Shown: piece by piece, positions 41,125 through 58,375 of the stretch
Layout of the letters: each line of letters opens with the position of its first letter
Numbering within the stretch: the stretch's first letter is position 1
Assembly: GCA_963169875.1 (NCBI GenBank)
Contig: CAUJEL010000153.1
Coordinates: 1 to 64,000, forward strand
Direction: 5' to 3'
Source: Candidatus Zhuqueibacterota bacterium
GTDB lineage: Bacteria > Zhuqueibacterota > Zhuqueibacteria > Residuimicrobiales > Residuimicrobiaceae
DNA: 64,000 nt
The notes under the pieces: model-generated
What the model was told of the DNA's origin: nothing
The model's input: only the letters and a program-made list of their open reading frames with translations
The model's database searches: none
Translations under genes and position numbers: made by a program

Positions 41125-41207
41125 AAATAGGGCCATTCTTGGGGAGGGGTTCGATGCCGTAAAAGCGCAGTTAAGTTCAGATCAATGGACACATGCGCTT
41201 TTTTTGT
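41125..41207 (+). ncRNA. Candidate small RNA between divergent genes
   Basis: A promoter-like pair ends at 41118, and AAAAGCGCA (41161-41169) / TGCGCTTTT (41194-41202) with a T-run forms a terminator-like hairpin, together bounding an RNA of about 83 bases. No conserved RNA family is recognised. It could equally be a leader attenuator of the downstream peptide operon. Confidence 0.35.
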
Positions 41208-41248
41208 GTTCCGGCTAATTCAAGGAAATAACCATCTGGAATGTATAA

Positions 41249-41345
41249 CCGGATAGTAAAACAGCACAAAACAACTTAACATGCTGTTAAGATGGCCGAT
41301 AGGCGGTTTTGACCTGTTATTCTATCCGGTGTTTTCACCGGTTAT
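41249..41345. repeat. Nested inverted repeats upstream of the graspetide-like operon
   Basis: Outer arms ATAACCGG (41245-41252) and CCGGTTAT (41338-41345). Within them CCGGATAGTAAAACAG (41249-41264) pairs with CTGTTATTCTATCCGG (41314-41329) at 14 of 16 positions. Inner dyads are CTTAAC/GTTAAG around 41275-41290 and CCGGTG-tttt-CACCGG (41326-41341). Alternative foldings share the CCGG arms. May be a regulatory RNA structure, a protein site or a degraded recombination site. Confidence 0.6.
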
Positions 41346-41471
41346 TAACATTTCTATATAAGATAATTTGTAATTTTTTTAATCAAGTAAGGCGCACCGT
41401 ATAGAATTTGTACATGGTGAATGGCGGGTTAATCGTAATTGTTAGGAAAAACAAAAAGAAGGAGAGTAAAA

Positions 41472-41678
41472 ATGAGAAACCATATTATTCTTGAGGAATC
41501 TTTTAAATACGATTTACCCAAAAAGGAAAATATACCGAATAATTACCAATATTCTGAAGAAGATGGATTTTGGCGCAATATCACAAATTCAATCCCCCTA
41601 ATCGAGGATTCTGATGGACCAAAACCACAGACCAAAAAACAAGATGTCGAAACTGGTGAGGATCGTAAAGGTGACTAA
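41472..41678 (+). CDS. Putative graspetide (RiPP) precursor peptide
   Basis: 68 residues. Start at 41472 with AAGAAGGAGAG before it. The first 40 residues form a leader-like part (MRNHIILEESFKYDLPKK, then IPNNYQYSEEDGFWRNITNS). The last 27 residues are dense in side chains that graspetide ligases join: acids Asp46, Asp48, Asp58, Glu60, Glu63, Asp64, Asp68 against Ser47, Thr54, Thr61 and Lys51, 55, 56, 66 (DSDGPKPQTKKQDVETGED). No signal peptide. The stop overlaps the start region of an MvdC/MvdD-type ATP-grasp gene, the normal partner that forms omega-ester or amide links. Assignment rests on this pairing and composition. Confidence 0.7.
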   Translation: MRNHIILEESFKYDLPKKENIPNNYQYSEEDGFWRNITNSIPLIEDSDGPKPQTKKQDVETGEDRKGD

Positions 41679-42612
41679 AATAAAAATATTAGTGATTTCT
41701 GATGCGAATGATTTCACAACAGATTATGTTTGTGTTGAACTTAAGAAAAGAGGATTAAATTATCTCCGAATTAACCGTAATAATTTTAATGCTTACAAGA
41801 TAAATTGGGATGTAAATGGGAATGCATTAACAATATCAATAAATAATAAAGACTATCTTATTGATAAATCGCTAAATTCAGTTTATTACAGGGCACCAAC
41901 CTTTTTACGTGAAACATTTTCTCAGTCGATTGCTCCAGAGGAGCAAATTTACAATTCACAATGGATGGCGTTCATAAGGAATTTAATATCATTTGAAGAC
42001 GCTTTGTGGATGAATAATCCCGTCTCAACATACAAAGCTGAAAATAAAATATACCAATTACTCCTGGCTCAAAAGATAGGTTTTAAAATTCCAAATACAC
42101 TTGTAGCTAATAATAATGATCGAATTAATAATACTTCCCTCTATGCAGTCAAGTCAATTGACACAGCAATATTCAAGTTTAGAAAGCAAGAGGGATTTTT
42201 TTACACTAACATCATCTCTGGAGATAACATTCGTAACTATGATTTGAGCTTAGCTCCAGTGACAATTCAAGTCGCTTTGGAACCGAAACTTGATTATCGA
42301 GTAACGGTAGTTGGAAATAAAGCCTTCCCTGTAAAAATTTTAAAAGGGGCATCAGGGGTCTATGGTGATTGGCGAAAGCACAAAAATGATGTTAAATTTG
42401 TTTTTAGCGAATTGCCTACTTGTATAACAGAATATTGTGTACAACTAGTAAGTAGTATGAACCTGCAGTTTGGAGGGATTGATCTCATCTATTATCACAA
42501 TGATTATTACTTCATAGAGTTAAATCCAACAGGAGAGTGGGCTTGGCTTAAGGACGCAGCTGACCTACCAATTGATCGTGAAATATGCAATATACTATCG
42601 AGGGATAAATGA
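41671..42612 (+). CDS. MvdC/MvdD-family ATP-grasp peptide ligase
   Basis: 313 residues from GTG 41671 (GAGG 11 bases upstream; ATG 41644 is an alternative, inside the precursor gene). Such enzymes phosphorylate an acidic side chain of a leader-bound peptide and close macrocycles with Ser/Thr/Lys. Visible: KIKILVISDANDFTTDYVCVELKKRG (N-terminal fold with the DFTTD segment), the central ATP-grasp PNTLVANN and AVKSIDT region, PVTIQVALEPKLDYRVTVVGNKAF, and the metal-binding end FIELNPTGEWAWLKDAADLPI with Glu and Asn of the ELNPTGxW motif. AT-rich. Overlaps the peptide gene in front and the membrane protein behind. Confidence 0.85.
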   Translation: MTKIKILVISDANDFTTDYVCVELKKRGLNYLRINRNNFNAYKINWDVNGNALTISINNKDYLIDKSLNSVYYRAPTFLRETFSQSIAPEEQIYNSQWMAFIRNLISFEDALWMNNPVSTYKAENKIYQLLLAQKIGFKIPNTLVANNNDRINNTSLYAVKSIDTAIFKFRKQEGFFYTNIISGDNIRNYDLSLAPVTIQVALEPKLDYRVTVVGNKAFPVKILKGASGVYGDWRKHKNDVKFVFSELPTCITEYCVQLVSSMNLQFGGIDLIYYHNDYYFIELNPTGEWAWLKDAADLPIDREICNILSRDK

Positions 42613-43481
42613 TCACAAAACTCTATAGAATATTAGCCTCAATTATATTTTTTCTTTTTCCATATTTTCGACTTAGAGCGGCAAATAACAAAATCGAGCA
42701 ACGTATTAAGCAAATTGACGATGGAGTTTTCGAAGACAATTTAAGTTATGTCGCAGGTTATGGTGATTACACTTTAAAAGATATTTTGCCTTTTTATGAA
42801 AAAACTTTGGAAACCAAAAAAAGTCTTGAGGATAAAGCAAAAATTAGTGTCGTCAGTATTACCATTCTTACCACTCTTGTTGTAGGTTTGACCGCCAATT
42901 TAGTCAAAGCACGTCTTGATTTTCATTCCTTATCTTTGTTTTGTTCCACCTTATTAACACTGTGTGTTCTAATTATTATCTATGTTGATTTTTCGTGCAT
43001 TTTGGCTATTAATCTCCTTGGGAACAAAAATAAAGTCTATCAATTATTTCCACCAAACACAAAATTGTCAGACAATAAAAAAGCAAATTATTTAACTATT
43101 TATACAGAACAGAATGCTAATCTAAATATTATAAGATCAAATTACTTGTTTTGTAGTTTTCAACATTTGGTTCATGCAATTATATGTATGAGTTTACTAT
43201 TTTTTGTCATCCTCATTGCAAATGGCGATGAGAGTCATAGTGCTGATGTTTTGGGCCAAACAAAAAATTCATATTTGGAGATTTCACATGACAAAACTCC
43301 GAATCTCAAAGTTAGTTTTGATTCTCTACAACTAAGAGCAATAGAAAATATTAATCAAGAATTTATAATCAAGACATTTAACGAATTCAATCAACAAAAA
43401 TCCAGACAACTTGATTCACTAAATAAAAAAATAGCTAAAATCGAAAAATATCTTCAAATAACTCCGCCACACGTAAAATAA
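42609..43481 (+). CDS. Three-helix membrane protein of the graspetide-like operon
   Basis: 290 residues. Starts inside the stop of the ligase gene (ATGA overlap), so translation is coupled. Membrane helices around 12-24 (weak), 82-97 (VVSITILTTLVVGLTANLV), 110-135 (LFCSTLLTLCVLIIIYVDF) and 190-207 (AIICMSLLFFVILIAN). The C-terminal 70 residues are polar and helical. Not a recognised ABC exporter or peptidase. Unknown membrane proteins of similar form accompany some ATP-grasp RiPP loci; transport, immunity or a target role are possible. An attC-like site starts five bases after its stop. Confidence 0.65.
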   Translation: MITKLYRILASIIFFLFPYFRLRAANNKIEQRIKQIDDGVFEDNLSYVAGYGDYTLKDILPFYEKTLETKKSLEDKAKISVVSITILTTLVVGLTANLVKARLDFHSLSLFCSTLLTLCVLIIIYVDFSCILAINLLGNKNKVYQLFPPNTKLSDNKKANYLTIYTEQNANLNIIRSNYLFCSFQHLVHAIICMSLLFFVILIANGDESHSADVLGQTKNSYLEISHDKTPNLKVSFDSLQLRAIENINQEFIIKTFNEFNQQKSRQLDSLNKKIAKIEKYLQITPPHVK

Positions 43482-43485
43482 AAAT

Positions 43486-43612
43486 TCCTAACCCGTGTGT
43501 TTACCTGACATCCGCCGCCTGTCGTTCTAGCTGTAATTGTTGCGGTAGATAGAAATGTCGCTATAGCGGTTTCCTTTTTTGCGGCTCCGACAGGTAACAC
43601 TACTCGTTGGGC
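43486..43612 (+). other. attC-like site 1 (127 nt)
   Basis: Core-like ends TCCTAAC (43486-43492) and GTTGGGC (43606-43612, a match to GTTRRRY). Inner arms GTGTTTACCTG (43497-) and CAGGTAACAC (43591-43600) pair with one unpaired T, the extrahelical base typical of attC. It begins five bases after a stop codon. Same length as sites at 46129 and 46882. Confidence 0.65.
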
Positions 43613-43774
43613 CTTTTATAGGAGAGCTGCATAGTAGGTAGTAGGACTGCGTATAACATGAATTACTCGCACCCTAATTTGATAGACGTAAAGAATCTGC
43701 AGACGAAATGCAAGTAGGCGCAAATTTGCGCTTTTGGAGTGATTGACTATAATTTGAACAAAGGAGAAATAACC

Positions 43775-44053
43775 ATGCCAGACGAGGTCGTATCAAGAGA
43801 CTCTGAGCTGCAAAAGCGGATTGTCAAACTTCTCTCTGCCCAGCTATGCCTCCAAATCAAAGCAAAATTCGAAAAAATACCGGATCAGGTCGATTTTCTC
43901 AGTGATTTTGCCCTGGACTCAAGAGAAATCGCAACAGTACTGCGAATAACTCCCTCGCACGCGTCGAAGGAACTTTCAATCTTGAAAAAAGCTGCTGAGA
44001 AATCAAAGGTGGGAAAGACAACCAAGCCGGGCAACAAGGCCCCAAAGGAATAG
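43775..44053 (+). CDS. Small HTH protein
   Basis: 92 residues. Start at 43775 with AAAGGAGAA 8 bases upstream. The middle shows FALDSREIATVLRITPSHASKELSILKKA, a helix-turn-helix of the sigma-70 region 4 / ArsR-like kind; N-terminal helical part SELQKRIVKLLSAQLCLQI; basic tail KSKVGKTTKPGNKAPKE. It precedes a winged-helix/HEPN gene by 240 bp in the same cassette-like segment, so it may regulate or partner it. No sensor domain. Confidence 0.65.
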   Translation: MPDEVVSRDSELQKRIVKLLSAQLCLQIKAKFEKIPDQVDFLSDFALDSREIATVLRITPSHASKELSILKKAAEKSKVGKTTKPGNKAPKE

Positions 44054-44060
44054 GAGGTTT

Positions 44061-44198
44061 ATCACCACGGCGCAGAAACCGACCAGTGCGCCAGAAAAGA
44101 AAGCAGCAAAACGCCTCTATGCCTTGACTGTTCAACTACTCTTAACGGCTGATGAACGGGAACGTGAAATCGAGGCTCTGAATGAGTTAACTTCCTGA
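44061..44198 (+). CDS. Possible 45-residue protein without a standard start
   Basis: An open frame of 45 codons follows the HTH gene immediately. GGAGG stands at 44053-44057, then ATC at 44061, then sense codons giving TTAQKPTSAPEKKAAKRLYALTVQLLL and a charged end TADEREREIEALNELTS. There is no ATG, GTG or TTG at the proper place, so either ATC is used or the start was lost. The protein-like composition and position suggest a small partner of the preceding gene; equally it may be chance. Confidence 0.25.
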   Translation: MTTAQKPTSAPEKKAAKRLYALTVQLLLTADEREREIEALNELTS

Positions 44199-44293
44199 AG
44201 GCAAGTAAAGCTAACTTATCTGGCTTAACAGATCAGAATTCGCCAAAAAGAAAGGTTAGAAAACATCATAGGAAGACAGCAGGAATACAGCAA

Positions 44294-45175
44294 ATGATTG
44301 ACGTCGAAAAGGTAAAATCAAATCTTCGTGAAGTCCTCTCCATGCACAGTAAAGCTTCGGAGATCCTCAAAAAGGTCAACGGAACTAGGGACTACAAGGA
44401 TATCTCGCAGCTTGTAGGTGTTCCAAGTACAACATGCTCATCTATCCTGAGAAGAGCTGCAGCGTTTGGATTGCTTCAAAAGACGGGCAGAACCTACCAG
44501 AAGACACAGGAGCTCAAGTACGCAAAAATAGACATCGTCAAGAAAGAACTTGGTGCTCCCCCCATTGCATCTCCTAAGGTGCGGCTTAGGAAGGCGGACA
44601 TTGATCTCACGCAGCTCAAGAAGCAAGAGCTTGAGTACCTCCTTAGTTGGCATAGCAATATCGAACACCCTTTTTCGGACTCGAGTCAGGCTCTCGACAA
44701 TGTGTCGATCAAACGTTGCTTCGATCACATGATTCAAACTCTCGAAACAGACACGGGCATGGTCCAGTTAGACGGTTTGGCAATGCGATTTCATGAATCG
44801 TTCAAAAACTACTTTAATGCTCGCCGGACAATCGCGGCTGAAATGACAGTGGCCTTCAAGAATCTGGTAGGTTGCTTCGAACCATATATCAAACAACTAG
44901 TCGCGATTAAAACTTGCGATCTGAAGCTTGCGCGTAAGAGCCTAAGTGGCGAACTAATAAAGAGAGTGGTTCAATTCGAAGGTGACATCGACCAGCACGA
45001 GACAACCTATTGGCAAAATAGACCGATACATGAGGCCTGCATTCGTGTTGTGTATCCATTCCGACACAAAGAGGCACACGAAGCCCGCAGATACCGGACT
45101 TATGAGATGGAGCGGGTTGTTTACTACTTGTTCGCATCGATCATACTCATTGATGAGAACCCTACTCATATATAG
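44294..45175 (+). CDS. Winged-helix protein with C-terminal HEPN-like RNase motif
   Basis: 293 residues. N-terminal winged-helix/HTH (SEILKKVNGTRDYKDISQLVGVPSTTCSSILRRAAAFGLLQKTGRTY, residues 22-68). The C-terminal half is all helical and ends with IHEACIRVVYPFRHKEAHEARRYRTYEMERVVYYLFAS: Arg257-His-x-x-x-His262 fits the HEPN R(N/H/D)xxxH catalytic pattern in the right place, one helix before the end. HEPN proteins of defence systems cut RNA. The fusion to a DNA-binding or protein-sensing winged helix is unusual. It lies in a cassette-like segment bounded by attC-like sites. Confidence 0.6.
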   Translation: MIDVEKVKSNLREVLSMHSKASEILKKVNGTRDYKDISQLVGVPSTTCSSILRRAAAFGLLQKTGRTYQKTQELKYAKIDIVKKELGAPPIASPKVRLRKADIDLTQLKKQELEYLLSWHSNIEHPFSDSSQALDNVSIKRCFDHMIQTLETDTGMVQLDGLAMRFHESFKNYFNARRTIAAEMTVAFKNLVGCFEPYIKQLVAIKTCDLKLARKSLSGELIKRVVQFEGDIDQHETTYWQNRPIHEACIRVVYPFRHKEAHEARRYRTYEMERVVYYLFASIILIDENPTHI

Positions 45176-45376
45176 TGGTAACAAAAGGGGCGCGCCAAAT
45201 CATCGGTCGCACTTGATCGCCAGGAGCTTCTCAGCCTGAACGTAACTATGATCTAAGGCCTTTACCTATGACTGTTTCTTAACGATAACAAAAAGTCGTT
45301 ATACAATAAATCTCTTACCATGACAGTTAGATATGATGCAAATAGCGTAATTAAATGGGTCTACCACATTGACTCT

Positions 45377-45489
45377 GCCCAACTAGCTGAGCGGAGAGTG
45401 CCTGTGCCCTCGCCAAGCTCGGGCAGAACCAGGCGCTCGAACGGTTACGACCCTTCGGGGCGACCGCTCAGCGCCGCATTATGTTGTAG
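45377..45489 (+). other. attC-like site 2 (113 nt)
   Basis: Ends GCCCAAC (45377-45383, matches RYYYAAC) and GTTGTAG (45483-45489). Arms CTGAGCGG (45387-45394) and CCGCTCAG (45464-45471) are perfectly complementary, then CGCCGC before the 3' core. The 200 bp between the HEPN gene and this site contain no supported gene. Confidence 0.5.
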
Positions 45490-45510
45490 GGAAAGGAATT
45501 GTTTACATAC

Positions 45511-46128
45511 ATGCCAAAAAGTTTATCAATCGATCAGATCGTAAATGCTACTCTTGCTGGTATTGAAAATTCCCAAAGAAAATATGAAGAATGGTCCGGT
45601 GGATATTGGCTATGGGAAGGTCCAGAATATTTAATCACGATAAGCGTTGCTGAAAATATAGCAAATTTAGGGGTGTCGAAATATCTAACTTTGGAGCATT
45701 CATCCGCGCAAACCATTGAAGATGCTGGGGCGAGAGGAAAAGGAAGACTTCCGCGTGGTATTAGGGAACATGGTAAAGTTGACATCTTAGTTTGGTGGGC
45801 AACTGATACTCCACGTGCAATAATTGAAATAAAGAATCAAATATATTCGAAAGAGCAATACAATAAAGACATTAGACGAATCAAAGAATTTCTAAACCGT
45901 AATGCAATCCTTTCAACAATTCAATTTGGCTTGTTTGCATTTTACGACTCGGCGTATGATGGCGTATTGAAAACTGCTGAAGAAAAAATTCAGAACAAAA
46001 TTGAGAAAATACAAAAAAATGTCATTGAAATTCTCGGCGAAAAATTTAGAATTGATGTTAAAAAAAATATTCATAGAGAAGATAAAGACGCTTGGGCAGC
46101 GGTTTGTATTTTAATTCGTGCAATTTAA
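45511..46128 (+). CDS. PD-(D/E)XK nuclease-like protein
   Basis: 205 residues from ATG 45511 (AAAGGAA at 45490-45496; a TTG at 45499 would be too near). Core of a restriction-type fold: GKVDILVWW with Asp91, then AIIEIKNQ with Glu106 and Lys108, i.e. D-X14-E-X-K, followed by helices rich in Lys (EEKIQNKIEKIQKNVIEIL). The N-terminal part has EWSGGYWLWEGPEYLITISVAENI. It is likely a DNase of a restriction or anti-phage system or a standalone defence protein. AT-rich; a site of attC type starts one base after its stop. Confidence 0.6.
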   Translation: MPKSLSIDQIVNATLAGIENSQRKYEEWSGGYWLWEGPEYLITISVAENIANLGVSKYLTLEHSSAQTIEDAGARGKGRLPRGIREHGKVDILVWWATDTPRAIIEIKNQIYSKEQYNKDIRRIKEFLNRNAILSTIQFGLFAFYDSAYDGVLKTAEEKIQNKIEKIQKNVIEILGEKFRIDVKKNIHREDKDAWAAVCILIRAI

Positions 46129-46255
46129 ACATAACACAGGTGTGTAGCCGACCTTCGCCGCCTGTCGCAATAGCAGCCATAATAGCGATAGAAAACAATG
46201 TCGCTTTAGCAATCTCATTTTATGTGGCTCGGCGGCTAACACGTCCGCGTTGTAG
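46129..46255 (+). other. attC-like site 3 (127 nt)
   Basis: Ends ACATAAC (46129-46135) and GTTGTAG (46249-46255). Arms GTGTGTAGCCG (46140-46150) and CGGCTAACAC (46233-46242) pair with one extra base on the left. Sequence near CCGCCTGTCG is shared with site 1. It starts one base after the nuclease stop codon. Confidence 0.6.
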
Positions 46256-46287
46256 TTAACGATCACCAATAGAAAACACCATTAATC

Positions 46288-46887
46288 ATGTTCCCGAAAA
46301 TTGCGTTTTTGGACTATCAAGTAATTGACTATATATTAAGAGTTGCCATTGGAAAATATTCAGGCGTTTTTGCGGGAGCGCTCAAATTGCTTGAATATGG
46401 TGCTGCGACTGGTAAATATCAATTTTGGATGTCAGAAATTTCAAAAGTCGAGATGATAATCGGTCTGGAAAATCCTCTAATTGAGAGGAGCCAGGTTTCA
46501 ACCTTAATTCAAAAAGATGAAAATAAGATAAATATAACTAAAAACTTGGGGGTTAAATGGCTTGGTTACCCATGCAGTAAGTTGGACGATCAATACTCAA
46601 GGTTAGGTGTTTCTTTTAGGGTTTCTGGGCCAGAATGGTCCATTGCATCAGCTTTTGAGGCAAAAATCGAACGAGTGCTGGGTGTATCAGCTGGTGATGC
46701 CCGGCAGATTGTTTCCTTAGTCTTAGGATTCGATGATGAAAATACACCTTTTCATTAAGACATAGGGTGTTTAGTCACAGAAGACCATGCATTTCGCTCT
46801 GCGTTAATTAAAGAAATAGAAGCTGGACGACTTCCAGAAATGAAACACATTCGTATTACTTCTGTCAAAGAATTCGTCACCAACTAA
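46288..46887 (+). pseudogene. PIN-like domain gene interrupted by a nonsense codon
   Basis: The first frame (46288-46758, 156 residues) reads IAFLDYQVIDYILRVAIGKYSG, MSEISKVEMIIGLENP and SAGDARQIVSLVLGF, the order Asp...Glu...Asp of PIN nucleases. It stops at TAA (46756-46758), but the same frame continues without another stop to 46887, giving DIGCLVTEDHAFRSALIKEIEAG, the usual last Asp strand (TEDHAF, cf. TNDKRF) and end of PIN domains. Restoring this single codon would give a 199-residue protein. A recent nonsense mutation is the simple reading. Confidence 0.6.
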
Positions 46888-47008
46888 CAATCGGCCGCAC
46901 CGGATGCAGGGCTATCGTTTGCATTTAATGTAGGTACCGCAGATTTTAAAATTAAAACGTTAAACCAAACTTGGCGTTGCCCTGCACCGGTGGGCCGTCT
47001 CGTTGAAC
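46882..47008 (+). other. attC-like site 4 (127 nt)
   Basis: Ends AACTAAC (46882-46888) and GTTGAAC (47002-47008, matches GTTRRRY). Arms CGGCCGCACCGGATGCAGGGC (46892-46912) and the complement at 46979-46997 pair over about 18 bases with two unpaired bases, the classical extrahelical bases of attC. Contains the stop codon of the PIN-like gene. Confidence 0.7.
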
Positions 47009-47048
47009 GCAGGAATAAAATGAAAAATCGTACGAAAGGCCTTTTGAA

Positions 47049-47693
47049 GTGAACTTAGTTAAATCAAAGCAACGCGTCGCAGACCACGGAGAGGTCTTCA
47101 CCCCGGCCTGGATGGTCGAAGCGATGCTTGACCTGGTCAAGGACGAGACGGAGCGTATTGACTCCCGCTTTCTGGAGCCGGCGTGCGGGAGCGGCAACTT
47201 TCTCGTGCAGATACTGCGGCGCAAACTCGCTGCTGTGGAACTTAAATATGGCAAATCTGATTTCGAGCGGCGGCACTACGCACTGTTCGCGTTGATGTGT
47301 CTCTACGGTATCGAGCTATTACCGGACAATATTGCCGAATGCCGGGCGAACCTGTTAGAGATATTTGCCGAGTATCTGAACCTTGTCCCGTCGGACGAAC
47401 TATATCGCGCCGCGTTTTACGTGCTTTCAAAAAACCTCGTCCATGGTGACGCCTTGACGATGCGCACCCATGACGCAAAGCCGATTACCTTCGCTGAGTG
47501 GGGCTATCTAGGCAAAGGCAGATACCAACGACGGGACTTTCGTTTTGATAACCTCACCCAGTCATCGGCTTTCAGTGCCGAGGGGACACTCTTCGCCCAT
47601 CTCGGCGTGCACGAGATCTTCACGCCTTCCAAGGACTACCCGCCGACGACAGTGAGCGAGCTGGCAGCCGTTGCACAGGAGGCAATTAAATGA
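47049..47693 (+). CDS. N6-adenine methyltransferase, SAM-binding half
   Basis: 214 residues. GEVFTPAWMVEAMLDLV is the start of Eco57I/type I-like methylases, and FLEPACGSGNFLVQILRRKL (about 41-60) is motif I for S-adenosylmethionine, with GIELLPDNIAECRANLLEIF next. The catalytic NPPY motif is not here but in the following gene, whose start overlaps this stop by four bases (ATGA). Thus methylase function appears split between two proteins or this half acts in recognition. The GTG start follows the attC-like site by 40 bp. Confidence 0.8.
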   Translation: MNLVKSKQRVADHGEVFTPAWMVEAMLDLVKDETERIDSRFLEPACGSGNFLVQILRRKLAAVELKYGKSDFERRHYALFALMCLYGIELLPDNIAECRANLLEIFAEYLNLVPSDELYRAAFYVLSKNLVHGDALTMRTHDAKPITFAEWGYLGKGRYQRRDFRFDNLTQSSAFSAEGTLFAHLGVHEIFTPSKDYPPTTVSELAAVAQEAIK

Positions 47694-49249
47694 GCGCAAA
47701 AGCCAGCTTTACTTTACGCGGCCGCAACCCGGATGTGCTTACATGTATCGCAAACCTCTCCAACGACGAGGTGTTCACACCGCCAGAGTTTGCGAGTAGG
47801 ATGTTGGACACGCTGGCAGAGGCGTGGGCTGCCAACAACGGCGGTGCGAATATCTGGGCCGACAAAACCGTAAAGTTTCTGGACCCATGCACGAAAACCG
47901 GCGTGTTTCTACGCGAGATTACCAGCCGCCTTACCGAAGGACTAAAGAACGAGATTGCGGACCTGGAGAAGCGTGTGAACCACATACTGACAAAGCAGGT
48001 GTTTGGCATCGGGATCACTCACCTCACGAGCCTAATGGCGCGGCGGAGCGTGTATTGCTCAAAGCATGCCAAAGGCGAACACTCGATTGCTAAAAGCTTT
48101 CCCAGCGACGACGGAAATATCTGGTTCCGGCGTACAGAGCATACGTGGGGCGATACCAAATGTGAATTCTGTGGCGCGCCCAAAGCGATCTTGGACCGTG
48201 ATGTAGAACTTGAAAACTATGCTTATGCGTTCATACATACCAATAACATCAAGACTCGGCTTGCCGAGATTTTTGGAGGCAACATGCAATTCGATGTTAT
48301 TATTGGCAATCCGCCATATCAAATGAATGACGGCGGTGGCGACGGCTCAAGCGCCACACCACTTTATCACCGGTTCATTGAGCAAGCGCTCCAACTCGAA
48401 CCGAAGTTCTTATCGATGGTCGTACCATCGAAATGGTTTTCGGGAGGCAAAGGATTGGACGAGTTTCGAGCTAAGATGCTCTCGGACCAACGCATCAGGT
48501 ACTTGATTGACTACCCGAACTCAAGAGACGCATTCAATGGAGTAGATGTAGCTGGCGGCGTTATGTATTTTCTTTGGGAGAAAGACAACCAAGGCACTTG
48601 CATGGTGGAGACACGCGCTAATGGTCAGAGCATAGTAGCGGAGAGATTCTTGAATGAGCATGAGGTTTTCGTCCGTGATAATCGTGTTCTCGGCATCGTG
48701 AAGAAGGTGAAAGCGCAAGGCGATCATGAGTTCTCAACCCTCGTCTCTGCCAGACGGCCATTCGGAATTGATGCGGCATATGAAGGAAACAAGACGGGCG
48801 AGCTCTATTTGTATACGAGCAGTGGCGACTCCCGGATTGATCGAAAAGATGTTGTTAAGGGAACCGACCTCATCGGCCAATGGAAAGTTCTGCTCTCAAA
48901 AACATCGAGCGAGCATGCAGGACAGCCCGATAAGTCAGGCCGGAAACGTGTGCTGTCTCGAATCGAGGTGATGCCCCCAAATTCAGTTGCTACAGAGTCG
49001 TATTTAGTTGTAGGACCGTTCAATTCAGAGCTGGAAGCAGAGCATGCAGTTGAGTATCTTCGCACGCGATTCGTGCGATTTCTTGTTTCTGCCATTCTGC
49101 TGACTCAAAATATCACTCGCGGGTCGTTCGTCTTTGTCCCTATCCAAGACTTCTCAATGTCGTGGACCGATAAAACGCTCTACAAAAGGTATCTGCTGAC
49201 ACCTGAAGAGATCGAGTTCATTGAGTCCACCATTCGTCCAATGGAATGA
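47690..49249 (+). CDS. Eco57I-type N6-adenine methyltransferase/restriction subunit with NPPY motif
   Basis: 519 residues. The N-terminal part repeats the FTPPEFASRMLDTL and FLDPCTKTGVFLREI layout (motif I, second copy, with CTKTG in place of ACGSG). Catalytic motif IV VIIGNPPYQMNDGGGDGS sits at about 205-222. The C-terminal target-recognition part shows VVPSKWFSGGKGLDEFR and ITRGSFVFVPIQDF. A Cys pair in CEFCGAP near 159 may bind zinc. It lies between the split methylase half and a GIY-YIG/helicase gene and should modify adenine in DNA to mark self. Confidence 0.85.
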   Translation: MSAKASFTLRGRNPDVLTCIANLSNDEVFTPPEFASRMLDTLAEAWAANNGGANIWADKTVKFLDPCTKTGVFLREITSRLTEGLKNEIADLEKRVNHILTKQVFGIGITHLTSLMARRSVYCSKHAKGEHSIAKSFPSDDGNIWFRRTEHTWGDTKCEFCGAPKAILDRDVELENYAYAFIHTNNIKTRLAEIFGGNMQFDVIIGNPPYQMNDGGGDGSSATPLYHRFIEQALQLEPKFLSMVVPSKWFSGGKGLDEFRAKMLSDQRIRYLIDYPNSRDAFNGVDVAGGVMYFLWEKDNQGTCMVETRANGQSIVAERFLNEHEVFVRDNRVLGIVKKVKAQGDHEFSTLVSARRPFGIDAAYEGNKTGELYLYTSSGDSRIDRKDVVKGTDLIGQWKVLLSKTSSEHAGQPDKSGRKRVLSRIEVMPPNSVATESYLVVGPFNSELEAEHAVEYLRTRFVRFLVSAILLTQNITRGSFVFVPIQDFSMSWTDKTLYKRYLLTPEEIEFIESTIRPME

Positions 49250-49282
49250 CCCTATTGTAACAAACATTAAAAAGGAGACAAT

Positions 49283-49657
49283 ATGTATCACAATGTATTT
49301 GGCACGAGGAATCAGATTCGTTTTGATACTGCAGCGGACTACTATGAGTTTCTGGGATATCTCGCCAAGGATGATGGAACGACGAAGCTAGTATGGGAAC
49401 ATAATGATGAACAAGGAGCGTGGGCGGAGGAGGGGAGAATCCAGTTCTATGTGATGCCACCAGCTACGCTACATGCCAGGATAAATCACACATCAGGTGT
49501 TGGGAATATCGTTTCGCGGGTCAACTGCAACGCTTTTGTTGAACACATTGCACAGCATCACCATTTTATTATTAACGGTTCGCAGGATATAGCAAGAATA
49601 AGGGTATCGATTCCGGCCGGGCACATCGCGGATTTCGACCGGGGTTTGGCGCTTTAG
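49283..49657 (+). CDS. Small hypothetical protein of the methylase-helicase operon
   Basis: 124 residues. Clear ribosome-binding site AAAAGGAGACAAT before the ATG. Sequence MYHNVFGTRNQIRFDTAADYYEFLGYLAKDDGTTKLVWEHN begins with a mixed alpha/beta fold; histidines near the middle (HARINHTSG, HIAQHHHFIING) might bind metal. No family is recognised. Tight packing between two subunit genes suggests it belongs to the system, perhaps as specificity or regulatory subunit. Confidence 0.6.
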   Translation: MYHNVFGTRNQIRFDTAADYYEFLGYLAKDDGTTKLVWEHNDEQGAWAEEGRIQFYVMPPATLHARINHTSGVGNIVSRVNCNAFVEHIAQHHHFIINGSQDIARIRVSIPAGHIADFDRGLAL

Positions 49658-49684
49658 AGGTTATTTAGGGATTGGCATTGAACA

Positions 49685-52222
49685 ATGAATAGGACCATCG
49701 AAGAAATCCTTGCGCCAAAGCCTGAGGTACGGCTGCGCATCTACGCCTACTCAATTGACGACAAGGCGCATAAGGGACTCCTCAAGATAGGGCAAACTAC
49801 ACGAGACGTAAAGCAACGAGTAGCCGAGCAACTCAAGACGGCAGCAATCAAGAACTACAAGATCGAACTCGACGAATCTGCCGAGCGCGATGACGGTACG
49901 ATCTACACAGACCACGACGTGAGGGCAGCCCTCGCCGAAAAAGGCTTTGAGAACATGGAGCTGGAATGGATGCGCTGCACAGTCAAGAACGTGAAGACTG
50001 TCCTCGCTGAGTTACGCACCGGGCAGCGGTTTACCGGCACGCATCACCAAACATTCTCAATGCGCGCCGAGCAGCGTGATGCCGTGGAAAAGACGCACGC
50101 CTACTTCCACTCTATCTGGAAGGAGGACATGCACGCCGTCCCACGTTTTTTGTGGAACGCAAAGATGCGCTTCGGCAAGACCTTCACCACTTATCAGCTA
50201 GCCAAAAAACTCGGGGCCAAGCGCGTGCTTGTGGTGACCTTCAAACCCGCCGTAGAAGATGCATGGCAAACAGATATTGAATCTCACGTGGACTTTGACG
50301 GATGGCAATACCTTTCCCGCAATTCCGACAGTGACCCAACCAAAATCAACTCCAAGAGGCCAGTGGTTTACTTCGGTTCCTTCCAGGACTTATTGGGTCG
50401 CGACGACGCGGGGAATATCAAGCCGAAGAACACGTGGCTTCACAAAGTAAAGTGGGATTTGGTCATATTCGACGAATACCACTTCGGTGCATGGCGCGAC
50501 ACCGCGAAGGAGCTGTTTGAAGGAGAAGAAGAGGCAATCGCTAAAAAAGAGGCCAAGCTTGAATATGCGTCCGACTTGGCAGACGTGAACGAAGACCTCA
50601 ACGTGCTGTCGGAAAATGAGACCGAGTTTTTGCCTATCACAACCAAGGCCTACCTCTATCTCTCTGGCACGCCTTTTAAGGCGCTAGCCACTGGCGAGTT
50701 TATAGAAGAGCAGATATTCAACTGGACCTATACCGATGAACAGCGCGCCAAGGAAGAGTTCGCAAATAAAAACCCAGGCAAGTGTAACCCCTACGGTGCG
50801 ATGCCGCAGATGCGACTACTTACCTATCAAATGCCAGACGAACTGGTGGCGATAGCGAACACCGGGGAATTTGACGAGTTCGACCTGAATGCATTTTTCG
50901 AAGCCTCGGGCACGGGCAAAACGGCGCAGTTCAAGCACAAGAGCGATGTGCAGAAGTGGTTGGACATCATCCGCGGCGGGTATGCGCCCAAGGTAGTGGC
51001 ACATCTAAAAACCGGCACCCGCCCACCGTTTCCGTATTCGGACGTGCGTTTGCTACCATATCTCCAGCACTCGTTCTGGTTCCTGCCTAATGTCGCGGCC
51101 TGCCACGCGATGGCGACCTTGCTGGCTGAAAAGCACAACACCTTTTGGCGCGATTATAAAGTGGTGGTGGCAGCCGGCGCTTTAGCGGGCATCGGGCTGG
51201 ACGCGCTACCGCCTGTGCGTCAGGCCATCGGCAGCGGATTCGACACCAAGACAATAACTCTTTCGTGCGGCAAGCTCACCACCGGGATCACAGTCCCGCA
51301 GTGGTCATCAATACTGATGTTGCGCAACTTAAAGTCGCCGGAGACCTACTTCCAGGCGGCGTTTCGCGTGCAGTCACCATGGTCCATCAAAAACCCCGAC
51401 GGAAACGACCCAAACGAAGAGGAAATCCTCAAGCCGGCTTGCTTTGTGTTCGACTTTGCACCCACGCGCGCACTACGGCAACTTTCCGAATACGGGATCG
51501 GGCTTTCTCCTAATGAGCCCAATCCTGAGAATGCAGTCAAAGACCTCGTGTCGTTTCTACCCGTTTTGGCTTACGATGGCGCGAACATGACGCAGATTGA
51601 TGCAGGCGGAATCCTCGACATCGCAATGGCTGGAACTTCAGCCACGTTGCTCGCGCGCAAATGGGAGAGTGCGCTGCTCGTGAACGTGGATAACGACACC
51701 CTTCGCCGCATCCTTGATAACCCCGAGGCGATGGCAGCCGTGGAGCGCATCGAGGGCTGGCGCGCCCTTGGCGATAATATCATTGAAACCATCATCAACA
51801 AGAGTGAAAAGGTCAAAGAACTTAAAAATAAGGCAAAGAACAAAGAATTGTCGGCGAAAGAGATGAAACAGCTCTCCGATGAGGAGAAGGAATTCAAGTC
51901 TAGGCGCAAACTCGTGCAGGAGAAGCTCATCAAGTTCGCGACGCGGATTCCTGCATTCATGTATCTGACTGACTTTCGAGAGAACACGCTACAAGACGTG
52001 ATCACCAAGATAGAGCCAGACTTGTTCGAGACTGTCACTGGTCTGACGGTGAGGGATTTCCACCTGCTCGTGCGGCTGAAGGTGTTCAATACCGAGCAGA
52101 TGAATCAGGCCGTATTCGCATTCCGTCGTTATGAGGATGCCTCGCTCCGCTATACCGGAATAGAAAGCCACCCGGGGTTGACCTATTACGGACTTTACGA
52201 CACCGTAGTCGCGAGAGAGTAA
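49685..52222 (+). CDS. GIY-YIG-like / SF2 helicase restriction subunit
   Basis: 845 residues. Residues 15-110 have a GIY-YIG/T5orf172-like core (IYAYSIDDKAHKGLLKIGQTTRDVKQRVAEQL, with Arg45 and a Glu further on), a nuclease fold. The helicase follows: Q-motif-like FSMRAEQRDAVEK (124-136), Walker A NAKMRFGKTF (158-167), motif Ia VTFKPAV, DEYH box LVIFDEYHFG (259-268), motif III LYLSGTPF, and motifs IV-VI in the middle (ITLSCGKLTTGITVPQW, YFQAAFRVQSPW). The last 180 residues are helical with a Lys/Glu coiled coil. It likely translocates on and cuts unmodified DNA with the methylase genes in front. Confidence 0.78.
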   Translation: MNRTIEEILAPKPEVRLRIYAYSIDDKAHKGLLKIGQTTRDVKQRVAEQLKTAAIKNYKIELDESAERDDGTIYTDHDVRAALAEKGFENMELEWMRCTVKNVKTVLAELRTGQRFTGTHHQTFSMRAEQRDAVEKTHAYFHSIWKEDMHAVPRFLWNAKMRFGKTFTTYQLAKKLGAKRVLVVTFKPAVEDAWQTDIESHVDFDGWQYLSRNSDSDPTKINSKRPVVYFGSFQDLLGRDDAGNIKPKNTWLHKVKWDLVIFDEYHFGAWRDTAKELFEGEEEAIAKKEAKLEYASDLADVNEDLNVLSENETEFLPITTKAYLYLSGTPFKALATGEFIEEQIFNWTYTDEQRAKEEFANKNPGKCNPYGAMPQMRLLTYQMPDELVAIANTGEFDEFDLNAFFEASGTGKTAQFKHKSDVQKWLDIIRGGYAPKVVAHLKTGTRPPFPYSDVRLLPYLQHSFWFLPNVAACHAMATLLAEKHNTFWRDYKVVVAAGALAGIGLDALPPVRQAIGSGFDTKTITLSCGKLTTGITVPQWSSILMLRNLKSPETYFQAAFRVQSPWSIKNPDGNDPNEEEILKPACFVFDFAPTRALRQLSEYGIGLSPNEPNPENAVKDLVSFLPVLAYDGANMTQIDAGGILDIAMAGTSATLLARKWESALLVNVDNDTLRRILDNPEAMAAVERIEGWRALGDNIIETIINKSEKVKELKNKAKNKELSAKEMKQLSDEEKEFKSRRKLVQEKLIKFATRIPAFMYLTDFRENTLQDVITKIEPDLFETVTGLTVRDFHLLVRLKVFNTEQMNQAVFAFRRYEDASLRYTGIESHPGLTYYGLYDTVVARE

Positions 52223-52277
52223 AGGGCGGCACGCGCGTTTGGAATATGTGCATGTAACATGAGCATATGAACTTGCG

Positions 52278-52390
52278 AGCTAACACCAGTCTTAACCAGA
52301 TGCCGCTTCCTCTCCCCCTACTCACCAACCGCGGCACCAGTTATACACCCCCTGTGGGGTTACTGCTCAGCGCCGCGATTAAACTATGTA
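52278..52390 (+). other. Degenerate attC-like site
   Basis: CTAAC near 52280-52284 and TCTTAAC (52290-52296) could be left cores; GTTATAC (52340-52346) is a possible right core (57 nt). TGCCGC and GCGGCA pair. CTGCTCAGCGCCGCGATTA (from 52363) is nearly the right arm of the site at 45464-45480. Pairing is weak, so the call is only tentative. Confidence 0.3.
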
Positions 52391-52415
52391 AGTAAATCAT
52401 TATAGGGAGGATGAT

Positions 52416-53378
52416 ATGCCAAAGAAGAAAAGTGCAGAAGTTGAGGAAGGTAAGAACTCTGGCCTACAAAATCCCCAACAAAAATCTGCAGTACAAATTA
52501 GCGATATTGTAAAAAACATTATCGATGCCTATAGTCCCAATGGTACCAATGATCAGAAGAGGGCTGCGCATGAATGCATTCGTCAGTATATTAAGCAGAT
52601 GCTCCTGGCTCATGGATGTAGCGATAAATATAATATCGTCATTGTGTTCGATCCTACAATCATGGTAAAATCGGATGCTGATAATATCTATTCATCGGTA
52701 ACATCATTTCAAGAAAATAAACCGTTATTATTAATTTTGCATTCGAATGGTGGTGATGCTGGTGCGGCTTATTTAATTGGAAAACTTTGTCGTGAGTATA
52801 GTAATGGAGCATTTATTATTAGCGTACCACGATCTGCAAAATCAGCTGCAACATTACTATGCTGCGCAGCTGATCAAATACACCTTGGAAGTTTAAGCGA
52901 GCTAGGACCAATAGATCCACAAATTAATAGAATGCCCGCGTTAGGCCTTAAACATTCGATTGAGCATATTGCTCAAATGTCCAAGGAAATCCCAGAGTCT
53001 GCAGAAATGTTCGCAAAGTATCTTCATTACTCACTAAGTCCAGTTGACTTAGGATATTATGAAAGAGTTGCCCAATCTGCAATGCAATATGCGGAGAGGT
53101 TATTGGAAACACACTCCGAGGCTCTTCCCAAAAGAGCACAAAAAATTGCTTATGAGCTTGTATATACATATAAAGACCATGGATTTGTAATTGACAAAAC
53201 TGAAGCAGCTGAAATATTTGGAAAAAAAATCATAATGACAAATACCGATGAATATAATTTGGGTAATGACATTTATAAAGCACTGGCATTGATCGAAAGT
53301 GTAGCATCCTACATGGAACATCAATTCTTTTTTGTAGGGGGATGCGAAGCTGATCCTCATTTTAAGAAAGTTCGATAA
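52416..53378 (+). CDS. SDH-family serine proteinase (ClpP/SppA fold)
   Basis: 320 residues. The SDH_sah motifs are clear: LLLILHSNGGDAGAAYLIGKL (oxyanion region, 104-124), VPRSAKSAATLLCCAADQIHLGSLSELGPIDPQI (137-170) with Ser143 as probable nucleophile in AKSAAT. The N-terminal 45 residues are basic/polar, without signal peptide, so it acts in the cytoplasm. Family members are membrane-linked or cytoplasmic serine proteases; their natural substrate is unclear, and several occur near defence genes. Ribosome-binding site GGGAGGATGAT. AT-rich, in a cassette-like unit ended by an attC-like site 12 bases on. Confidence 0.8.
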   Translation: MPKKKSAEVEEGKNSGLQNPQQKSAVQISDIVKNIIDAYSPNGTNDQKRAAHECIRQYIKQMLLAHGCSDKYNIVIVFDPTIMVKSDADNIYSSVTSFQENKPLLLILHSNGGDAGAAYLIGKLCREYSNGAFIISVPRSAKSAATLLCCAADQIHLGSLSELGPIDPQINRMPALGLKHSIEHIAQMSKEIPESAEMFAKYLHYSLSPVDLGYYERVAQSAMQYAERLLETHSEALPKRAQKIAYELVYTYKDHGFVIDKTEAAEIFGKKIIMTNTDEYNLGNDIYKALALIESVASYMEHQFFFVGGCEADPHFKKVR

Positions 53379-53390
53379 TTACAGAGTTGC

Positions 53391-53489
53391 GTTTAACCCT
53401 CGTCTGTTGCAGATGGCAGCTGGGGCAGCTTGAAATTTGAAAATCTAGGGTAAAATTACAGCGGCCGCAGCAATGCAGGGTCGTTATGC
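53391..53489 (+). other. attC-like site 5 (99 nt)
   Basis: Ends GTTTAAC (53391-53397, matches RYYYAAC) and GTTATGC (53483-53489). CCCT-rich left arm and GCAGCAATGCAGGG right arm are only partly complementary. Begins 12 bases after the protease stop codon. Confidence 0.4.
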
Positions 53490-53960: not shown

Positions 53961-53976
53961 GGTGCGCCTTGGTGCA
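53961..53976. repeat. REP-like palindrome, copy 2
   Basis: GGTGCGCCTTGGTGCA, one base different from copy 1 in the palindrome (14-15 of 16 identical). Lies 28 bp before the TIR-STAND gene start. Confidence 0.5.
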
Positions 53977-54004
53977 CGCTACCACTTCATCGAGAGGGTA
54001 CATA

Positions 54005-57000
54005 ATGCCTGATCATGTATTTATCAGTTATTCAGCTGCAGATGCTCTGGAGTTTGCACTTCCGCTCGCCGATGAATTGGAGGCCGGGGACAAATTTATC
54101 GATGCATGGATCGATAAACGCGACATTGATCCCGCCCGCGATTGGGATGAGCAAATCGTGGAAGCAATCAAGACCTGCAGGTGCATGGCGTTTGTGATGA
54201 CAAAAGACAGCGTTGTTTCTGGCTCAGTGTGCAAAAACGAATGGTCTTGGGCGTTGAAATATAAAAAAGTTGTCATCCCCATTAGATTGCATAAGGACGC
54301 AGAACAACCGTTTGGATTGGGAAAGCGCCAATACATCGATTTCTCTGAAAATTTTGAACATGGTCTGGCAAAACTGCGAAAGTTCCTGAGCCATATGGAT
54401 TCGCCGGAAGGGAAGCTTGATAGTCTAAAAGACCGACTCGCAGACGCTAAACGCGATTTGCACCGCGCCCATGGCGATGAAGAAAATCGAATCAAAGCAG
54501 AAATAAAAGAACTGCAGGAGCAAATACAAATTCAACAACAAATCATTGCGTACCCTGAGGCAGCGCAAGAGCTAACAAAAAAAAATATCAAGGAGGGATT
54601 GGAACGCGAACGAAATTCCAAAACGCCTGCTTCGAAAAAAACAGAAACAAAATTTATCAATCCTCCCCCCGGTATTGCACCAACCTATTTTCAAGATCGT
54701 TACATTGAAACAAAACAAATTGCAGATTTTCTGCGTAATGACGCACAACGTGTGCTAACTATTGTCGGACGCGGAGGTGTCGGGAAAACGGCGATGGTGT
54801 GCCGCTTGCTCAAAGCAATCGAAACCGGGGAATTGCCCGATGAATTGGGTGCGATGCCAGTGCGGGGAATCATTTATCTTAGTGAAAGCGGCAGTCATCG
54901 CGCTACATTCATCAACATTTTTTATGATCTGTGCAAGTTGCTCCCCGACGATACTGCGAAGCAACTGGACGCTATCTATAAAAACCCACAAACCAGCACT
55001 GAAAGCAAGATGCATGCAATACTTGATAGATTCAACGATGGACGCATTTTGCTACTCCTGGATAACTTTGAACCTCTTATAGATCCAGAGACGGAGAAAA
55101 TTCGTGACACGGAACTGGGTGAAGCTTTACGGGCATTAATTTGTGGCCCCCATCATACAGTCAATGTGCTGATCACTTCGCGTATTGCGCCGCGTGATTT
55201 GAACTTGTGCGAGCCGGGTAGACAGCGTGTGCTCACGCTCGACGAAGGCCTAGAGTCACCCTACGCAGAAAATATCCTGCGCGAAATGGATAGTGATGGA
55301 CGATTGGGATTAAAGTCTGCTTCCGAGGAGGTGCTAAAACGCGCTCGTAATAAAACGAGAGGATTCCCCCGCGCGCTCGAGGCTTTCTTTGCCATTCTTG
55401 CCGCTGACCGTTACACAACACTGGAAGAACTACTTGCCATGCCGCTTCCAGAAAACGTGGTGGAGTCGCTTGTGGGCGAAGCCTTTAGCCGCTTGGATAA
55501 GAACGCACAAATGGTGATGCAAGCGCTGGCGATATACAACCGTCCCGTGACTTCGGCAGCCGTGGACTACCTGCTTGCATCACATGTGCCTACCATAGAC
55601 AGCGCGCCGATATTGCAGCGTTTGGCGAACATGCACTTTACACACAAAGAAGGCGGTCGATTTTACCTGCATCCTGTAGATCGGGAATTTGTGCATGATT
55701 TGATACCTGTACGAAGTGCACAGGAGACTAATGATTTTTCCAGACCTGCTTTAACGCTGAAAGCTGCGGAATATTTTGCCCAAGCGCGTAAACCTCGCGC
55801 TGAATGGAAAAAATTGAATGATCTCGCCGCACAATTGACTGAATTTGACCTGCGGTATACCGCCGGAGATTATGATGGCGCTGCACATGTGCTAGATGAA
55901 ATCGATTTTGACTACCTTCTTCTTTGGGGACATTATCGCTTGCTGATTGATTTACATTTAAGCATGAAAGACAAAATCAAGGATCATAATTTACGTTTGA
56001 TGAATTTCAATGGTTTAGGTCTTTCACATTATTTCATTGGCAAAATAAAAGAAGCCATATCTTATTATCAACAGGGGATCGACGCGTCTATTGAAGGCGA
56101 GGACCGCAAATGGGAATGTGCTTTTATTGGAAACCTTGGTCTGGCGTATGCAGATTTGGGGGATGCGCGCAAAGCCATCGAGTGCCATGAAAAGGCCTTG
56201 GTCATTAAGCAAGAAATCGGTGACCGCCGCGGCGAAGGGAATGCCCTCGGCAACCTTGGTATGGTGCATGCAGATTTGGGGGATGCGCGCAAAGCCATCG
56301 AGTTCTATGAACAGGCATTGGTCATTGAAAGAGAAATTGGCAATCGACGTGGCGAAGGGGCTGACCTTGGCAACCTTGGCAACGCGTATGCGGATTTGGG
56401 GGATGCGTGCAAAGCCATCGAATTCTATGAAAAACAGTTGGTCATCGTGAGAGAAATCGGCGATCGCCGCGGCGAAGGGAATGCACTCGGCAGCCTTGGT
56501 CTGGCGTATGCGGATTTGGGGGATGCACACAAAGCCATCGAGTTCTATGAACAGGCCTTGGTCATTGAAAGAGAAATCGGCGATCGCCGGGGCGAAGGGA
56601 ATTCGCTAAACAACCTTGGTTTGGCGTATGCGGCTTTGGATGATGCGCGCAAAGCCCTCGAGTTCATTGGAAAAGCAGTGCAAATAGCGGATGAAATATC
56701 GGACCAAGATGTGCAAATTGTAGGACGTGGGGAAACAGTACAGATTTATCTTTCCCAAAACGATTTAGACAGAGCTTGTGACACAGTCATCACCGCTTTA
56801 AAATATCATGTGCCGCAATATAACCACATTCTAAGCGTTCTGCAAGGAATTGTCGCCTCGCGACAGGGGGATGAAATAACAGCATGTCAAGCCTTTGCAT
56901 GTGCCATTAATCAAGCAGATGACATGCTTGCCCAAACACCCGAGTTCTATACAGCTCTGGATGCAAAAGGTCTGGCGTTGTGTGGATTGGCTTTATGTAA

Positions 57001-57193
57001 AAAGGATACAGCAAAACAGAAGAAAGACGATGCTCTTTGTGTAGATAAGGCCATCGAAACCTTCCGCAATGCGCGAAAGATTGCGCCTCATGCCGGGGTA
57101 ATCAATCGCACCCTCAGGTTATTTGATGAATTGGCAAAATGTGATCACGATGGATTACTGATAGAGGCTCGCAAAGCAGCGGCAAGTGCATAG
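54005..57193 (+). CDS. TIR - STAND NTPase - TPR protein (NLR-like defence)
   Basis: 1062 residues. Start ATG 54005 with GAGAGGG 7 bases before. TIR domain 1-110 ([31 protein letters not shown]) with Cys76 and the likely NADase Glu79 in SVCKNEW. Charged coiled coil about 135-205. STAND/NB-ARC-type NTPase: Walker A GRGGVGKT (255-262), Walker [11 protein letters not shown] (347-356), sensor NVLITSR, winged helix [22 protein letters not shown] sensor from about 640 to 920 with five near-identical 40-residue repeats. Family knowledge: the sensor detects phage or stress, the protein oligomerises and the TIR part degrades NAD+. Whether this one does so is inferred. Confidence 0.85.
56131..56690 (+). 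repeat. 120-bp in-frame tandem repeats (TPR units)
   Basis: About five units of exactly 120 bp, marked by GATTTGGGGGATGCG at 56153, 56273, 56393 and 56513 and a diverged copy at 56633. They encode [20 protein letters not shown] / [11 protein letters not shown] repeats. The copies are more alike in DNA than TPR function needs, a sign of recent duplication or conversion. Confidence 0.9.
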
Positions 57194-57469: not shown

Positions 57470-58375
57470 ATGGCAATCCCCGATTATCAGACCATAATGC
57501 TCCCATTGCTGAGCTATAACAGTGATGGAAAGGAACATGGCTTACGAGAAACGATTGAGGCCTTGGCCGATCGATTCAAGCTGTCCGAACCGGAAAGAAA
57601 TGAGCTTTTGCCAAGTGGACAACAAGCTATCTTTGACAATAGAGTAGCATGGGCGCGAACTTATCTGATCAAAGCCGGACTCCTGCAATCAACTCGCCGC
57701 GGCTTTTTTCAAATCACCAGCCGCGGCCAGGGCGTCCTGAATGAAAAAATCGATCGCATCGATGTGAAATATCTAGAAAAGTTTGAGGAGTTCAAAGAGT
57801 TTCGTCAGCGGACGCCCAAAGACACCGCTCAAGAAAACGAGGGCATTGATTCAAGGCAGACGCCGGAGGAGGTGTTGGAACAGGCCTATCAGAAAATCCG
57901 CCATGATCTTGCTGACCAGATCCTCAAACGAGTCATGGAATCCTCCCCCTCCTTTTTCGAGCGCATGGTCGTTGAACTACTGGTAAAAATGGGTTATGGG
58001 GGATCAAGAAAAGATGCCGGGCAAGCCATCGGTCAAACCGGAGACGGCGGGATTGATGGAATCATCAAAGAGGACAAGCTGGGCCTTGATATTATATACA
58101 TTCAGGCGAAACGCTGGCAAAACACCATCGGCCGGCCCGAGGTGCAGAAATTTGCCGGCGCCTTACAGGGACAACGGGCCAGGAAGGGCGTTTTTATTAC
58201 GACATCGACATTTACGAATGATGCACGCCAATATGCCGCGAATATAGAAAACAAACTGATACTCATAGATGGCCTTCAACTCGCCCAGCTGATGATCGAA
58301 AATGATGTTGGGGTTTCAACCTCCGCCCGCTATGAAATTAAGAAAATTGACTCTGATTATTTCAGCGAGGAATGA
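57470..58375 (+). CDS. mrr: Mrr-type restriction endonuclease
   Basis: 301 residues, normal length. Type IV enzyme that cuts modified DNA. N-terminal winged-helix Mrr_N domain (1-95: MLPLLSYNSDGKEHGLRETIEALA, LIKAGLLQSTRRGFFQITSRG). Catalytic Mrr domain from about 155: FFERMVVELLVKMGYGG, then GQTGDGGIDGII with Asp196, and YIQAKRW with Gln212 and Lys214, the D-(Q/E)XK site. A following GVFITTSTFTNDARQYA is conserved. AAAGGAATG precedes the ATG. The last 70 bp are repeated at 60240-60324, after a stretch of gene debris. Confidence 0.93.
   Translation: MAIPDYQTIMLPLLSYNSDGKEHGLRETIEALADRFKLSEPERNELLPSGQQAIFDNRVAWARTYLIKAGLLQSTRRGFFQITSRGQGVLNEKIDRIDVKYLEKFEEFKEFRQRTPKDTAQENEGIDSRQTPEEVLEQAYQKIRHDLADQILKRVMESSPSFFERMVVELLVKMGYGGSRKDAGQAIGQTGDGGIDGIIKEDKLGLDIIYIQAKRWQNTIGRPEVQKFAGALQGQRARKGVFITTSTFTNDARQYAANIENKLILIDGLQLAQLMIENDVGVSTSARYEIKKIDSDYFSEE

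Follow-up and report, generated by a model that had tools for sequence, protein, structure and literature searches.

We found that a three-gene unit present in at least eight phyla probably makes a cross-linked peptide with a role in defence, not a variable antibiotic. We consider a defence use probable because the operon recurs with a near-unchanging peptide tail, often beside anti-virus genes. Graspetides are usually discussed as secreted, variable natural products, for example protease inhibitors. In contrast, the operon described here has a core that is almost frozen across phyla, horizontal transfer, anti-phage neighbours and a constant membrane partner; the invariance of the core across phyla, the membrane protein as constant partner and the location in defence islands could not be seen from the window sequence alone. 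If our interpretation is correct, it would give the graspetide class a role in immunity, and would provide both a defined peptide for work on topology and a compact, testable three-gene system. In the literature searched, no described system matched the operon, including any ATP-grasp or graspetide system in phage defence or defence islands, and the core string did not occur. One metagenome study describes co-expression of RiPP families with antiphage genes in general.

The operon lies in a 64,000-nucleotide stretch of DNA from a Candidatus Zhuqueibacterota bacterium (contig CAUJEL010000153.1, positions 1 to 64,000), referred to here as the window. Its features are as follows.

41472..41678, + strand: precursor peptide gene, 68 aa, stop codon TAA, defined by alignment of 41 homologues
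41631..41675, + strand: predicted core peptide TKKQDVETGEDRKGD, at the C-terminus; family consensus [T/S]KKxDxETGEDxKGx
41671..42612, + strand: predicted graspetide synthetase (ATP-grasp ligase), 313 aa, GTG start, assigned from profiles, fold and conservation
42609..43481, + strand: membrane protein, 290 aa, ATG start, three transmembrane (TM) helices

A preliminary description, made from the DNA alone, had proposed a graspetide-like RiPP operon of three coupled genes at 41472-43481. All three open reading frames are present there, overlapping and on the + strand, and the proposal as a whole is supported by the profile matches and predicted fold of the ligase and by the conserved acidic/Thr/Lys core of the peptide homologues. 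A Shine-Dalgarno-like AAGGAG lies 5′ of the peptide gene. The ligase start, which the description had noted as overlapping the 68-residue peptide gene, is assigned by homology to GTG 41671, giving an overlap of 8 nt with the 3′ end of that gene; an alternative start, ATG 41614, was ruled out, since homologous loci begin at the DVLIL/KILVI strand. The ATG of the membrane-protein gene (42609) overlaps the ligase stop codon by 4 nt. The description was also right that the third gene encodes a membrane protein, that the operon has no ABC exporter or protease, and that the peptide shows no double-Gly site.

The best NCBIfam matches of the ligase are TIGR04187 (E 3e-46), MvdC (4e-41) and MvdD (4e-33). 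All three scores are far below the curated cut-offs; therefore, the protein is a member of the superfamily but of none of the named equivalogs. Its sequence matches in the PDB are CdnC (7mgv), MdnB (5ig8), AMdnB (7m4s), MdnC (5ig9) and PruB (9bou). An AlphaFold2 model (mean pLDDT 89) matches CdnC, MdnB/MdnC, PruB and PsnB ahead of RimK, with 31 graspetide macrocyclase chains in the PDB ranking before the first RimK. Grouping with ATP-grasp enzymes of amino-acid or cofactor metabolism, which would have refuted the description, is thus not what we see, and RimK or a cofactor ligase is ruled out by the PDB sequence matches and the fold ranking. The catalytic residues of the ATP-grasp fold are intact: none of K126, K161, R210, D233-W234-R235, D271, E283 and N285 varies among the 43 aligned ligases, and nearly all outgroups have them too. 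The DFTTD and ELNPTGEW motifs highlighted earlier likewise include residues fixed in all 43 relatives (D14, D18, D271, E283, N285, P286, G288 and W290). By sequence and modelled fold, the window ligase is a graspetide synthetase, and we are highly confident that the chemistry is that of a graspetide, with predicted omega-ester/amide cross-linking of the peptide by the ligase.

The precursor that adjoins the ligase has the conserved core of Thr/Ser/Lys and Asp/Glu residues expected of a graspetide. Across 41 aligned peptides, the core reads [T/S]-K-K-x-D-x-E-T-G-E-D-x-K-G-x and lies at the C-terminus. Position 1 is Thr in 30 peptides and Ser in 11, with no other residue, fitting the expectation for an ester-forming hydroxyl; K2, K3, D5, E7, T8, G9, E10, D11, K13 and G14 are present in all 41, so that 10 of the 14 residues are invariant. 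Pairwise identity between peptides averages 83% over the core but about 25-27% over the leader, and median identity is 42% for the ligases and 18% for the membrane proteins. Homologues thus retain the acidic/Thr/Lys core almost letter for letter, the point on which the preliminary description had staked its reading. With ten invariant residues in the last 14-15 of 41 peptides from at least eight phyla, the pattern is not due to chance. Core patterns of known graspetides include TxKxPSD in microviridin and TTxxxxEE in plesiocin; the invariant core matches neither, as the description had noted, and its ring topology may, as suggested there, be new. Leader motifs of graspetides include PFFxxFL in microviridin and, more generally, Phhx(1,2)h. 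By inspection, no leader in this family has PFFxxFL, and a Phh-like stretch (PLI, PMI, PVI or PLV) precedes the core in many, but not all, peptides. The conserved features of the leader (residues 1-53) are instead HxL and GxW, with H4, L6 and G32 near-invariant and W34 invariant in the 41 peptides. At a locus in a Burkholderiaceae metagenome-assembled genome (MAG; L024:5583-6001), two precursor genes lie in tandem; their leaders differ, but the core is the same.

We scanned 84,980 species genomes with patterns derived from the ligase alone and identified 39 loci. In 36 of these, the ligase is 36-55% identical to that of the window, and all 36 have a peptide with the same core followed by a membrane protein of the same family, with gene order retained. 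The peptide is frameshifted in one (L044), and the membrane-protein gene is cut by a contig end in another (L012) and truncated in two (L026 and L044). Since the scan used patterns from the ligase and not from the peptide, recovery of the peptide at 36 of 36 loci is an independent test. The three loci that lack a core have a truncated ligase (L045) or distant ligases (L046 and L047). Using tblastn, we identified plasmid-borne ligases (34-41% identical) in Rhizobium, Agrobacterium, Azospirillum, Martelella and Mesorhizobium, each with a peptide of about 62-63 residues 5′ of the ligase and, where undisrupted, the membrane protein 3′ of it. Two viral contigs (L051 and L052) also carry the operon. 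At E 1e-8, we detected no operon homologue elsewhere in the window's own phylum (81 genomes), and no match among complete E. coli genomes in a distant DNA search with the copy from Lelliottia.

The 43 core-type ligases form a single clade (support 99/98), separate from MvdC, MvdD, TgmB and a sister group described below. At least eight phyla are represented, namely Pseudomonadota, Bacteroidota, Bacillota, Ignavibacteriota, Planctomycetota, Acidobacteriota, Omnitrophota and FCPU426. The closest relatives of the window ligase are from one MAG each of Planctomycetota and Ignavibacteriota, followed by Bacillota, and the ligase of a Burkholderiaceae MAG is placed among Bacteroidota; placements of single MAGs may suffer from binning error, while isolates and plasmids are well represented. 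Close ligase pairs occur in different phyla, on plasmids and on viral contigs. Distances between ligases, leaders and membrane proteins are correlated (Spearman 0.50-0.65; Mantel p 0.001), and therefore the three genes travel together as a unit. Decayed copies include two with an IS insertion in the ligase gene (L008 and L050) and three with a truncated membrane-protein gene (L007, L026 and L044), and the peptide is often still intact in decayed loci. We conclude from these sequence relationships that the operon is mobile and has spread horizontally.

In an AlphaFold2 model of the membrane protein (mean pLDDT 85), TM1 and TM3 are each preceded by a long cytosolic helix; the tail is variable. 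The protein matched no Pfam, NCBIfam or PADLOC family, and a Foldseek search of the PDB and BFVD returned nothing under E 0.001. A DxK-TM motif had raised the possibility of a SLATT or PycTM protein; this was rejected, since Pfam SLATT_5 matched 2 of 40 family members, with E 0.05 at best, and hhalign probabilities were below 5%, in comparisons with shallow alignments of 2-4 rows. The family is undescribed, and graspetide operons, of both the invariant-core type and the repeat type described below, are its only known association.

The operon begins about 270 bp inside a defence island (41205-60037). Features of the island, other than the operon itself, are as follows.

41205..41471, no strand: left edge of the island and region upstream of the operon; a genome of the same genus aligns (85%) up to 41204 and then diverges
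43739-45175, 3′ of the operon: two ORFs with weak helix-turn-helix similarity
45499..46128, + strand: Tin-like protein gene (PADLOC Tin, E 6.6e-10)
47049..52222, + strand: Eco57I-type methylase genes and one for a T5orf172/ResIII helicase, similar to a split type IIG restriction-modification system
53969..57193, + strand: TIR-domain protein with TPR repeats (STAND-like)
57470..58375, + strand: type IV (Mrr-like) restriction enzyme (PADLOC mREase_IV, E 8.9e-98)

The second ORF of 43739-45175 shows a weak resemblance to CARF/Csa3 regulators, in their C-terminal part, and a gene for a PIN-like protein, recognized by eye, also lies to the right of the operon inside the island.

We scanned the flanks of 44 operons, three ORFs to either side, against PADLOC (E 1e-8). 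In two sets of flanks, 309 profiles matched in 121 ORFs and 176 in 122 ORFs. Two control sets from the same genomes gave 12 profiles (112 ORFs, random sites) and 13 profiles (113 ORFs next to integrases); these profile counts are redundant, and so are not counts of proteins, and the kinase, AAA ATPase and helicase profiles are generic. Flanks of short-chain dehydrogenase genes were dropped as controls because they resembled fatty-acid synthesis operons; random and integrase-flanking sites were used instead. Among 20 neighbours scanned singly (E 1e-15), picked by hand mostly for size, 11 matched defence profiles: Septu PtuA (twice), CBASS cyclase, type IIG restriction-modification, DRT reverse transcriptase, AbiD, Ppl, OloA-like, PD-Lambda-4_A, a PDC-S37/Hhe-like helicase and a PD-T4-6/mad6-type kinase, the last of which is generic. 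Annotated neighbours on plasmids include SIR2, AbiE and ABC-three-component genes; on Agrobacterium plasmid pAt1, a SIR2-family gene lies directly 3′ of the operon (L004:5739-8882). None of the families in PADLOC-DB 2.0 matched the peptide, the ligase or the membrane protein. The neighbourhood of the operon is enriched in defence genes over the controls. The association can, nonetheless, reflect cargo that merely shares islands with defence systems.

The invariant core, the constant membrane partner and the defence islands together point away from an ordinary variable natural product, and the fixed core and island setting make an anti-phage or related conflict role the best single reading. Hence, we propose, with about an even chance of being correct, that the three genes form a mobile conflict system, most probably directed against phage, in which a graspetide of fixed structure acts with the membrane protein. 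The ligase would bind the leader of the small peptide and, using ATP, join side chains within the C-terminal core by ester and amide bonds; possible nucleophiles are T/S1, K2, K3, T8 and K13, and possible carboxylates are D5, E7, E10 and D11. The product would probably remain inside the cell, because no exporter or leader protease accompanies the ligase. A core with so little variation implies a partner that is itself constant, for which the co-inherited membrane protein is the best candidate, a conserved host or phage target being the other option. The membrane protein may be an effector that disrupts the membrane or causes arrest, and the modified peptide would either hold it off or trigger it during infection; the sequence fits both.

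We considered whether the operon instead encodes an ordinary graspetide natural product. On this view, the peptide would be secreted and, like microviridin or plesiocin, inhibit proteases or act as an antimicrobial, and the membrane protein would export it or confer immunity. The enzyme family is that of known graspetide synthetases, known graspetides inhibit serine proteases according to Carter et al. 2026 (PMC13097080), and a membrane protein of thuringinin loci, itself uncharacterized, has been proposed as a peptide transporter by Makarova et al. 2022 (PMC8939145). However, the core conservation described above extends across many phyla, whereas known graspetides vary their cores, even among similar ligases, as that survey describes (PMC8939145). 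Moreover, the operon comes with neither an exporter ATPase nor a leader protease, the peptide has no double-Gly site, the membrane protein is small, has three helices and is unlike a transporter, and the surrounding genes are for defence, not biosynthesis. We therefore regard this explanation as unlikely. We judge slightly lower still the probability of an addiction module resembling a toxin-antitoxin pair, in which the membrane protein would be the toxin and the antidote would be either the modified peptide or the peptide together with the ligase; such a plasmid or island module would stabilise mobile elements, with defence as a mere side effect. The frequent occurrence on plasmids and phage contigs, the compact overlapping gene arrangement and the broken copies with a truncated or interrupted membrane-protein or ligase gene are consistent with such a module, but an antidote that consumes ATP and requires an enzyme would be unusually costly, the operon clusters strongly with dedicated anti-phage systems, and copies in Mesorhizobium and Xenorhabdus retain the peptide after loss of the ligase, so that there is no clear polarity. 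Lastly, a regulatory or structural device, in which the modified peptide modulates a host membrane process such as signalling or envelope stress with no relation to phage, would suit an invariant core with a conserved host target and a constant membrane partner, but is improbable given the sporadic, horizontally spread distribution, the lack of homologues in other sampled genomes of the window's phylum, and the defence-island setting.

The operon can be compared with several known systems. It resembles known graspetides (MdnA/MdnB/MdnC, CdnC, PsnA/PsnB, TgmA/TgmB and PruB) in the sequence family, predicted fold and ATP-grasp residues of the ligase, and in having a precursor directly upstream with a core rich in Thr/Ser/Lys and Asp/Glu. 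It differs from them in having a single invariant core rather than variable cores, no exporter or protease, a constant membrane protein, and a ligase clade of its own.

Also related are sister units from Sinorhizobium, P. aeruginosa, Croceicoccus, Agrobacterium T29 plasmids and Leptospira phage LE1 (L009, L010, L127, L128, L167 and L168), whose precursors have several TKTxxxxExDD repeats; in phage LE1, the unit lies between HTH and ParB-like genes. Gene order is the same, the ligases are related, and the cores have similar spacing, T-K-[K/T]-x4-[T/E]-x-[E/D]-D. Their membrane proteins are homologous to the window family (hhalign 95%, E 2e-8), the phage protein having been compared by eye only. 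The sister units differ in having several variable core repeats and ligases of about 26-33% identity that form a separate clade (100/98). The shared spacing suggests that the invariant core may be a single, derived repeat whose third residue has become Lys; we hypothesize that one ester may thereby have become an amide. On a Pedobacter plasmid (L125:2998-6951), a distant ATP-grasp gene adjoins genes for lasso-peptide biosynthesis.

Published surveys contain possible counterparts of the membrane protein. Uncharacterized membrane proteins encoded near graspetide synthetases are grouped as clusters 18 and 40 by Makarova et al. 2022 (PMC8939145); these are likewise small and of unknown role, and the text that accompanies them there mentions neither a link to defence nor an invariant core like the present one (PMC8939145). 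Cluster 40 could be the window family. Carter et al. 2026 list 43 graspetide groups, several with unmatched partner proteins (PMC13097080), and either survey may already include the window family under a number.

A further comparison is with CBASS, Pycsar and SLATT-type TM effectors. These are superficially similar in having a charged cytosolic helix and a DxK-like motif before TM1, and in their layout, with a small multi-TM protein encoded in defence islands beside an enzyme that makes a small activator. They differ in that the membrane protein described here has no significant profile similarity to PycTM or SLATT_5, and in that a peptide made by ribosomes, not a nucleotide, would be the small molecule. 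We tentatively suggest, as an idea with a somewhat less than even chance of being right, that a cross-linked peptide of fixed structure serves as an intracellular signal to, or plug of, a membrane effector, making the operon a peptide counterpart of CBASS and Pycsar in a widespread form of immunity.
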